From: Candidatus Competibacteraceae bacterium
GTDB taxonomy: Bacteria > Pseudomonadota > Gammaproteobacteria > Competibacterales > Competibacteraceae
NCBI GenBank assembly: GCA_020444905.1
Contig: JAGRHQ010000003.1
Span: 1 to 48,436, forward strand
Length of the DNA: 48,436 bases
Direction: 5' to 3'
Positions within the stretch are counted from its first letter, which is position 1. Each line of letters opens with the position of its first letter. This document shows, in pieces, positions 10,590-14,358 of the stretch. Both the position numbers and the translations under genes were made by a program. Under the pieces are notes generated by a model. The model did not search any database, was not told the origin of the DNA, and was given only the letters and a program-made list of their open reading frames with translations.

Positions 10590-11675
10590 ATGACTGACCC
10601 TAAACATGACTCCGTCACCCGCACTCTCAGCGCCGACCTCCCGGAACGCAAAAAACCCGGTTTACTTGAGGTATTGAATCGCCCAATTCGCTTTCCTTCC
10701 TTCCGCAAGGATAAGACATCTGGGGAATCCCCCGAAGCCGCAGAGCCGAAACCAGAGCGCTTTGCCCGATTGCGCGACCGGTTGCGGCGCACCCGCCAGG
10801 GATTGGTCTCCGGTTTGGCGGGCCTGTTCAAAGGGCGGAAACTGGACGATGAGGCGCTGGAAGAACTAGAAAGTCGCCTGTTGCTGGCGGATGTGGGTGT
10901 GGACGTCACAAATCACCTGATTCGGCGGCTGACCGAGCGAGTTTCACGCCAGCAATTGAGCGATGTGACCGCCTTGCTCCAGGCCCTGCGCGACGAACTG
11001 TTGGCGATCCTCACACCTTGTCAGCAACCCTGGCGACCCAGTGAATCCCGTCCCTACGTGATTCTCATGGTTGGGGTGAACGGCGTTGGCAAAACCACGA
11101 CGATTGGTAAACTGGCGCAATGGCTGCAAACTGAGGGACATTCAGTGCTGCTGGCCGCCGGCGACACTTTCCGCGCCGCCGCCGTCGAACAATTGCAGGT
11201 CTGGGGCGAGCGCAACCATATTCCCGTGATCGCCCAGAAAAGCGGAGCCGACGCCGCCTCGGTGATCTATGACGCGATTCAGGCCGCCAAAGCCCGTGAA
11301 GTCGACGTAGTGATTGCCGACACCGCTGGTCGCCTGCACACCCAATCGAATCTGATGGAGGAACTGAAAAAGATTAAACGGGTCATGGGTAAAGTCGATC
11401 CCACAGCGCCGCATGAGGCGCTGTTGGTCGTGGATGCCAGCACCGGCCAGAACGCCTTAAATCAAGCTGTGCAGTTTCATGAAGCGGTCGGCGTAACCGG
11501 CCTGATCCTGACCAAGCTCGACGGCACAGCGAAGGGCGGGATTGTGTTTGCCATCGCCCGCCGGCTGGGTCTGCCGATTCGCTTCATCGGCGTGGGCGAA
11601 AGCATCGAAGATTTACGTATGTTTGACGCTGCCGAGTTCGTCGCCGCTCTGCTGGATGAGGAAGCGGGCTACTGA
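10590..11675 (+). CDS. ftsY: Signal recognition particle receptor FtsY
   Basis: A 361-residue SRP GTPase that receives ribosome-SRP-nascent chain complexes at the inner membrane. An N-terminal charged region (residues 1-75) stands in for the long acidic A domain of enterobacterial FtsY. The NG domain follows: helical N domain about 75-145, P-loop [15 protein letters not shown] near 162-176, the [12 protein letters not shown] insertion-box region, [16 protein letters not shown] (G3), and [10 protein letters not shown] (G4 and closing loop). It is followed 97 bases downstream by rpoH. In many gammaproteobacteria ftsE and ftsX lie between these two genes; here they are absent. Confidence 0.97.
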
Positions 11676-11708
11676 ACCACGGTTTGGCGAACGGAACCTC
11701 TCCCAAAT

Positions 11709-11735
11709 TTGGCACTCTAAGGGCATGAGTGCTAA
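11709..11735 (+). promoter_or_regulatory. CIRCE element (HrcA operator) upstream of rpoH
   Basis: The sequence reads TTGGCACTC-N9-GAGTGCTAA (left arm 11709-11717, right arm 11727-11735). It matches the CIRCE consensus TTAGCACTC-N9-GAGTGCTAA at 17 of 18 defined positions with the exact 9-base spacer. CIRCE is the operator of the heat-shock repressor HrcA. It overlaps both core elements of the candidate promoter, as expected for direct repression. No hrcA is in the window. Confidence 0.88.
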
Positions 11736-11738
11736 AAT
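11709..11738 (+). promoter_or_regulatory. Candidate rpoH promoter
   Basis: TTGGCA (11709-11714) and TAAAAT (11733-11738) are separated by 18 bases, a reasonable vegetative promoter. The -10 box lies about 35 bases upstream of the rpoH ATG. Both boxes sit inside or against the CIRCE arms, so HrcA binding would block RNA polymerase. Confidence 0.65.
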
Positions 11739-11772
11739 AGTGCTTAATCAAGTGAATCAACGGGAGGAATGA

Positions 11773-12654
11773 ATGACGATGACGACGACTGCGCTGGTTC
11801 CCCGTATTGAAAATCTGCCGGCACCGGTCGGCAACCTGGAGAGCTACATCCAGGTTGTTAACCGGATGCCGATGCTCAGCGCCGAAGAAGAGCAGGAACT
11901 AGCCCAGCGTTTGCGGCTGCGCCACGATCTGGAAGCAGCGCAACGCCTGATCGTGGCCCATCTGCGCTTCGTGGTGCATATCGCCCGTGGTTATCTTGGC
12001 TACGGCTTGCCGCTGGCCGATCTGGTTCAGGAAGGCAACATTGGTCTGATGAAAGCCGTCAAGCGTTTCGACCCGGCCTACGGCGTGCGGCTGGTCTCGT
12101 TCGCGGTTCACTGGATTCGGGCGGAAATTCACGAATTCATCCTGCGCAACTGGCGAATCGTCAAGGTCGCCACCACCAAGGCGCAGCGCAAACTGTTCTT
12201 CAAGCTGCGCGGCTCCAAAAAGCGCCTGGGCTGGCTCAATCACGAGGAAGTCAACACCGTTGCGCGGGAGCTTGGCGTCAGCGCCGAAAATGTCCTGGAA
12301 ATGGAATCGCGACTCAATGGCCATGATGTATCGTTCGACCCTTTCCCGGAAGCCGATGGCAACGACGATGCGGAGAATTTCGCACCCGCCGCCTATTTGC
12401 GTGACGAACAGGCTAATCCAGCGGAAGCGCTGGAGCGCGACGACTGGGATGAACGGGCGGTCAGTCAACTGGGCGAAGCGCTGGAGCGGCTGGACCCGCG
12501 CAGCCGAGACATCGTGCAACGTCGCTGGCTGAGCGATGCTAAACCGACTTTGCACCAGTTGGCGGCTGAATATAAGGTTTCCGCTGAACGCATCCGGCAA
12601 TTGGAAAACAGCGCTATGAAGAAATTGCGCGCGGCTTTACCCGCGCCGGCCTGA
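11773..12654 (+). CDS. rpoH: RNA polymerase heat-shock sigma factor RpoH (sigma-32)
   Basis: A 293-residue group 3 sigma factor directing transcription of chaperone and protease genes. Region 2 spans about residues 50-125 ([39 protein letters not shown]). The RpoH-specific box QRKLFFKLR follows. Region 4 is at the end ([20 protein letters not shown]), forming the -35-binding helix-turn-helix. GGAGG lies 5 bases before the ATG, with a second in-frame ATG two codons later. Its own promoter carries a CIRCE site, suggesting control by HrcA as well as any post-transcriptional thermosensing. A hairpin terminator follows directly. Confidence 0.97.
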
Positions 12655-12866: not shown

Positions 12867-13514
12867 TCATTGTGAACCACTACCCTTGATTCTCTGACTT
12901 GCGCCCACGTCCAACATTCCCTGCTCAACAATAAAATCAATGACCTGATCCAGTCCCTGCTGGGTTTTCAAATTGGTGAACACAAACGGTCGCTCACCGC
13001 GCATCTGCAGCGCGTCGCGCTCCATCACTTCCAGTGACGCGCCCACATGGGGGGCAAGATCAATTTTGTTGATCACCAGCAAATCGGAACGGGTGATGCC
13101 GGGACCGCCCTTGCGCGGAATCTTGTCACCCGCAGCTACGTCGATCACGTAGATCGTCAGGTCGGACAGTTCCGGACTGAACGTAGCGCTGAGGTTATCG
13201 CCGCCGGACTCCACTAACACCAGGTCCAGATCAGGAAAACGCTCGCACAATTGTTCGACCGCCGCCAGATTCATCGAAGCGTCCTCACGAATCGCCGTAT
13301 GCGGGCAACCGCCGGTTTCCACTCCGACGATTCGCTCCGGCTCCAATGCCTGAGCGCGAGTCAGGAACTGCGCGTCTTCGTAGGTGTAGATGTCGTTCGT
13401 CACGACGGCGATTTGATAGTAATTACGCAGCGTCTTGCACAGCGCTTCGACCAGGGCGGTTTTGCCGGAACCCACCGGGCCGCCGACGCCAACGCGCAGG
13501 GGTTGCTTATTCAT
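12867..13514 (-). CDS. ureG: Urease accessory GTPase UreG
   Basis: A 215-residue SIMIBI-class GTPase that powers nickel delivery to apo-urease with UreD, UreF and UreE. The ATG at 13514 has GAGG 8 bases upstream and gives the normal family length; a longer frame would cross the upstream gene end. Motifs: P-loop [17 protein letters not shown] (residues 8-24), [11 protein letters not shown], the nickel-binding CPH within [31 protein letters not shown], and base-specificity motif NKIDLAP. No other urease gene is in the window. It follows a PP2C-like gene by 16 bases, so the two are probably cotranscribed. Confidence 0.96.
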
Positions 13515-13530
13515 ATACAGCGCCTCTCTC

Positions 13531-14358
13531 TCAATTCGTCCTGACAAATACGCCCATGCCGACATCGTCGAGATTGAATACTTTTTGTTGACCATACTCA
13601 ACCAGTACACTACGGATCTGGCGCTTCATAAAACCGGCTTCAAGGTTTGGGAAATCCAACAACCGCCGGGCAACTTCCAGTATTTCTACGCGTTTCCCAG
13701 TTTCAACATTCATCAGGGAATGCAGACCATCGGTCGCTACCGCCACAGTAGGAAATGTTGCCAAAGGGAAACTGAACACGATGGGCGCATCAAAAGCGGC
13801 CTGACGAACAGTTGCCTCCCCCTCACCGAATTCATGGATACTTTGCGCCATCTGCGCGTTGCCAACAGCTTCGCAATACAAAGCGCACCGTTTGGCATCC
13901 AGCAAATAGCTTAAGTAGAAGGGGGCATTTTCAGCATACTCGATCTGGATTGCTCGGACCGATCCATCCGCTTGCCGGGTCGCAATGCAGCCATCCCCGT
14001 ATAGATGGCTATGTATGGCCTCCCCGTCACACCAGGCGATGAGCAACGTAGCATCGAGTACCGCCGTATCGACGCCCAAATCCCGGACCTGGCGGGCGGC
14101 GCGGCGGATGATGCGCCGTCCTAGCGACCAGTGCCGGACGGTTCTCTCTGCCAGGTCGTAACCTTTCAGGGCGAAACGCGGCAACAAACGACGCGCGGTC
14201 AAAACCAGCAACCGCGCTCCCAGGTCGCTGTCCGGAGCGGCAGAGCAGCCATCGGCCAAAATCACATAAGGCAAAGGTTGCCAGCCTTGACCCACATAAT
14301 CCTCGCAAAACAAATGCAGCTTGCCGATGGTGTAGTACGAATCCAAGGCAATCATCAT
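13531..14358 (-). CDS. PP2C-like (PPM) phosphatase-domain protein
   Basis: A 275-residue cytoplasmic protein with the layout of a PP2C-type metal-dependent phosphatase. [20 protein letters not shown] gives the metal-binding Asp-Gly (Asp36, Gly37). Residues 101-110 ([10 protein letters not shown]) correspond to the central strand, [12 protein letters not shown] holds the second DG motif (Asp210), and [12 protein letters not shown] supplies the terminal Asp pair (264-265). Family assignment is by motif order; overall similarity to standard phosphatases is low. AGGGA lies 10 bases upstream of tandem ATGs at 14358/14355. It is 16 bases upstream of ureG. Alternatives are a degenerate PP2C fold acting as a binding protein. 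Confidence 0.7.

Follow-up and report, generated by a model that had tools for sequence, protein, structure and literature searches.

A predicted HrcA operator interlocked with putative sigma-70 and sigma-E-type promoters upstream of rpoH in a Competibacteraceae bacterium

Background

Textbook accounts of heat-shock control usually present either repression by HrcA or the use of sigma-32, the product of rpoH. In what was likely an earlier survey, Permina and Gelfand in 2003 reportedly examined CIRCE, the operator for HrcA, in the beta and gamma groups. In 2004, comparative genomics predicted a CIRCE ahead of rpoH in Geobacter sulfurreducens (PMC545781, Table 8), and the activity of HrcA itself is GroE-dependent, as summarised in a titration model (PMC6032397). 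Sigma-E/AlgU control is also described for this gene: rpoH is in the AlgU regulon of Pseudomonas (PMC7641640), and GAACTT-N16/17-TC is a known form of RpoE/AlgU promoters (PMC3247240; PMC7641640).

The locus described here lies in a window of 48,436 nt (the whole stretch of DNA that was analysed) from the draft assembly of a Competibacteraceae bacterium. In our preferred reading, to which we assign a probability of roughly 0.78, the 46 bp at 11693-11738 would form a composite promoter-operator that lets HrcA gate transcription of rpoH by the housekeeping as well as the envelope-stress route.

Genomic context of rpoH

The features of the locus are collected in Table 1. The identity of rpoH is supported by a curated equivalog model, TIGR02392, whose cut-off is exceeded. 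A scan of the gap between ftsY and rpoH found no terminator-like site on the + strand, and read-through from ftsY is therefore possible.

Table 1. Coordinates of features at the rpoH locus
Feature	Position	Strand	Basis or remark
ftsY, immediately 5' of rpoH	10590..11675	+	TIGR00064, 371 bits
Sigma-E-type -35 box GGAACCT (consensus GGAACTT)	11693..11699	+	exact composite match G000:C333:11693-11735
CIRCE operator for HrcA (predicted)	11709..11735	+	left arm 11709-11717, right arm 11727-11735; one mismatch to consensus
Sigma-70 -35 box TTGGCA	11709..11714	+	inside left CIRCE arm; promoter scan
Sigma-E-type -10 box TCTAA	11716..11720	+	last two left-arm bases and first three spacer bases; 16 bases from -35
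Sigma-70 -10 box TAAAAT	11733..11738	+	extended TG at 11730-11731; first three bases belong to right CIRCE arm
Ribosome-binding site GGGAGGA	11762..11768	+	read from sequence
rpoH (heat-shock sigma factor sigma-32, 293 aa)	11773..12654	+	TIGR02392 rpoH_proteo, 409 bits, cut-off 323

The placement of ftsY immediately 5' of rpoH is found in all 22 rpoH loci of Competibacteraceae (relatives of the 75-91 percent type and more distant ones; 10590-12654 in the window). Outside this family no ftsY was found within the rpoH upstream flank, and in E. coli rpoH is preceded by ftsX; Competibacteraceae have apparently lost or relocated ftsE and ftsX. On the minus strand, a UreG/HypB-like GTPase gene was called by eye at 12867-13610, and a second ORF (13531-14358) overlaps it.

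The CIRCE operator and its conservation

The operator at 11709-11735 (+ strand) reads TTGGCACTC-TAAGGGCAT-GAGTGCTAA and matches the consensus TTAGCACTC-N9-GAGTGCTAA at 17 of 18 arm bases with a spacer of exactly 9 bases, bearing out the near-perfect CIRCE with one mismatch that had been described in an initial sequence-only reading. It is the sole match in the window at three or fewer mismatches. Dinucleotide shuffles of the window, 100 in all, contained none, and by our own arithmetic about 4e-5 chance matches at no more than one mismatch are expected per window. A search for further CIRCE sites, proposed in the same reading, found no second copy in the 4.0-Mb draft assembly (three or fewer mismatches), a result that says little because the groE promoter region is missing from the draft: no groES was detected there, and of groEL there is only a fragment at a contig edge, so that a groE operator, though expected, would escape detection. 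An HrcA regulon dedicated to rpoH alone, considered on the strength of this uniqueness, was rejected given these gaps and the CIRCE elements present in the groES loci of sister genomes.

Conservation of the dyad before rpoH in close relatives, on which the sequence-only reading had staked its proposal, is extensive. CIRCE (two or fewer mismatches) precedes rpoH in 28 of 30 loci of relatives, in both of two further genomes looked at separately, and in each of the five genus members that yielded an rpoH locus. An alignment of four members of the genus has both arms and the following AAT invariant, with variation in the flanks and at most spacer positions. In a diverse proteobacterial set, 79 rpoH loci offered sufficient upstream sequence, and CIRCE (three or fewer mismatches) lies before 42 of them. 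CIRCE before rpoH is thus a widespread and common arrangement in hrcA-bearing proteobacteria, not an unusual one.

The arrangement as a whole can also be followed. The composite pattern GGAACYT-N9/10-TTRGCACTC-N9-GAGTGCTAR, searched without mismatches, was found in 55 of the 369 class genomes, spread over 42 of 272 genera; a reversed control pattern had no match in this set, and rpoH is directly downstream in each of the 30 composite loci examined. Some rpoH operators depart from the standard sequence: those at L065, L089, L139 and L143 carry the same or nearly the same change in both arms (TTAGCAGTC-N9-GACTGCTAA), and the L139 genome keeps a standard CIRCE at groES (L150). Such symmetry suggests that a modified HrcA site has been selected for.

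Association with hrcA

Control by HrcA presupposes an hrcA gene, a point on which the sequence-only reading had been made to depend, and one is encoded in the same assembly (TIGR00331, 332 bits; PF01628 and PF03444; winged-helix domain). Across the diverse set, 39 of the 42 operator-bearing rpoH loci are in genomes with a detected hrcA, and 31 of the 37 operator-less loci are in genomes where none was detected, the other six being in hrcA genomes. With genomes counted as independent, though they are related by descent, the association of CIRCE before rpoH with the presence of hrcA has a Fisher p of 1.7e-12 (79 loci). The three operator-bearing genomes with no detected hrcA are draft metagenome assemblies, in which the gene may possibly have been overlooked. 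In one relative with no detected hrcA (G041, locus L146), the operator looks decayed and GGAACTT-16-TCTCA is intact.

Two further observations concern hrcA itself. The hrcA flank examined has no CIRCE, either in the host genome (L002 / L207) or in the rest of the genus, and several related genera of the family have one; autoregulation of hrcA may accordingly have been lost in the genus. Pseudoalteromonas luteoviolacea (L077) has a perfect CIRCE before rpoH, and its only HrcA-family match is weak (46.6 bits), possibly representing a divergent HrcA.

Two predicted promoters sharing the operator

A promoter scan of the + strand found a single sigma-70-type promoter, TTGGCA-18-TAAAAT, with an extended -10. 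The sequence-only reading held that CIRCE covers the -35 box and abuts the -10 box; the first part stands, and the second is to be amended to a three-base overlap, the right arm supplying TAA, the first half of the -10 box. TAnnAT follows the operator in register at 26 of 28 family and 35 of 42 diverse rpoH CIRCE sites, and at none of the 27 groES or 16 hrcA CIRCE sites.

This promoter is interlocked within 11693-11738 with a second predicted one, of sigma-E type, GGAACCT-16-TCTAA. It matches the GGAACTT-N16/17-TCNNA form with one mismatch in the -35, and CIRCE shares bases with its -10 as well as with both sigma-70 boxes. The claim that the operator sits on the only good promoter before rpoH consequently does not hold. 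HrcA control of rpoH appears to be the best reading, supported by the presence of hrcA and the conserved dyad; the sequence-only reading of it was incomplete in that the sigma-E promoter had been missed.

The sigma-E block was discovered by aligning rpoH loci on the operator, after which GGAACTT was scored at one mismatch or fewer. It is present at a fixed offset, beginning 16 or 17 bases 5' of the operator, at 20 of 28 family and 25 of 42 diverse rpoH CIRCE sites (45 of 70), with means of 0.09 and 0.29 matches per set in comparable windows further upstream. At groES (0/27) and hrcA (0/16) CIRCE sites it was not found in either orientation. The evidence for the sigma-E -10 is weaker than that for the -35, because the CIRCE arm supplies TC automatically and the hrcA operators share the preference for T and A in the spacer; a TNA preference in the rpoH spacers, considered as separate proof of this box, was downgraded since hrcA operators also show T and A at spacer bases 1 and 3.

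It might be argued that HrcA represses the sigma-70 promoter only, GGAACYT being a remnant or recognised by something else. About one third of rpoH CIRCE sites, several from Burkholderiales among them, do lack a good GGAACTT, and at some sites the -10 is poor (TCTAT in relative G003) or the -35 is imperfect (GGAACCG in relative G004; the GGAACCT of the window is itself one base off consensus). This explanation is nonetheless unlikely, given the fixed register and the restriction of the motif to rpoH among CIRCE sites, and GGAACTT also precedes many rpoH genes that have no CIRCE. Upstream of rpoH in E. coli K-12 is TGAACTT-16-TCTGA, which we take to be promoter P3, with the same spacing as the site in the window. 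The host genome, moreover, encodes rpoE (TIGR02939, 322 bits, above cut-off), itself preceded by a sigma-E-type site of equal spacing that includes TCTA (GAACTT-16-TCTAC), as in close relatives. A strict scan requiring a final A found no match before the rpoE loci, and a relaxed scan with the last base free found none in about half of them. An rseA homologue follows rpoE (PF03872 RseA_N, 58 bits, above cut-off; below cut-off for the full-length RseA model PRK10863).

Alternatively, the dyad could act chiefly at the RNA level and not as a DNA operator, folding into a hairpin (an attenuator or stability element) in mRNA that reads through from ftsY into rpoH. A 9-bp stem is possible in such RNA, there being no terminator between the genes, yet this seems very improbable: the predicted sigma-70 start is 3' of the dyad, which is hence absent from that transcript, no T-run follows the dyad, no Rfam match was found in the window, and the arms hold the exact CIRCE sequence, with no free covariation, in a distribution that tracks hrcA. 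A chance or relic dyad with no present function, for which one might cite the operator-less hrcA of the host and the lack of another CIRCE in its draft genome, is refuted by arms that are invariant in the genus and kept across the class, and the missing groE promoter region and the groES operators of sister genomes weaken the second of these points.

A model for rpoH regulation

Under the composite promoter-operator reading, bound HrcA would exclude RNA polymerase carrying either sigma factor. Misfolded proteins would titrate GroEL and leave HrcA inactive, as is known for HrcA elsewhere, so that rpoH would be derepressed and sigma-32 would rise. With groE and dnaK in the sigma-32 regulon, newly made GroE could then restore HrcA and close the loop. 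Envelope stress, acting through the sigma-E promoter, might raise sigma-32 further, although this input would be gated by HrcA. Transcripts that read through from ftsY could escape control at the operator.

Tentatively, and at somewhat less than even odds, the fused sigma-E/sigma-70/HrcA hub may be ancestral for rpoH across Gammaproteobacteria in the GTDB sense, which takes in the beta group. Where hrcA was lost, as in the enterics, the sigma-E promoter alone would then have been kept, P3 of E. coli rpoH being a leftover, and in the ancestral form envelope stress would raise sigma-32 only if cytosolic chaperonin capacity were also exhausted.

What sets these loci apart from the taught dichotomy is that the repressor site lies at the gene for sigma-32, as it does in a large fraction of proteobacteria, and is interlocked with a promoter for the envelope-stress sigma factor. 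If the model is correct, 46 bp would bring three stress systems together, and E. coli, lacking hrcA, would be a poor model of rpoH transcription in its hrcA-bearing relatives.

Relation to described systems

Geobacter sulfurreducens likewise has a perfect or near-perfect CIRCE close to the 5' side of rpoH and hrcA in its genome (PMC545781). It is, however, a deltaproteobacterium, and the source's entry names the site only, with no overlapping sigma-E promoter mentioned there (PMC545781). The sigma-E-type or AlgU control of rpoH in E. coli and Pseudomonas is similar to that proposed here, but comes without CIRCE; hrcA had no match in the E. coli control genome or in the Pseudomonas genomes tested.

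The groESL CIRCE of Competibacteraceae itself has the same operator sequence and presumably the same repressor as the rpoH site. In the two genus members concerned, however, the groES operator begins just 3' of a separate TTGACA-17-TATGAT promoter and forms none of its boxes, and unlike the rpoH operator it has no GGAACTT upstream. A search of the open-access literature, with subscription journals outside its scope, returned no paper that joins rpoH, sigma-E, HrcA and a promoter. The component parts are thus known, and within the open literature searched it is the fusion of CIRCE with a sigma-E promoter at rpoH that seems to be new.
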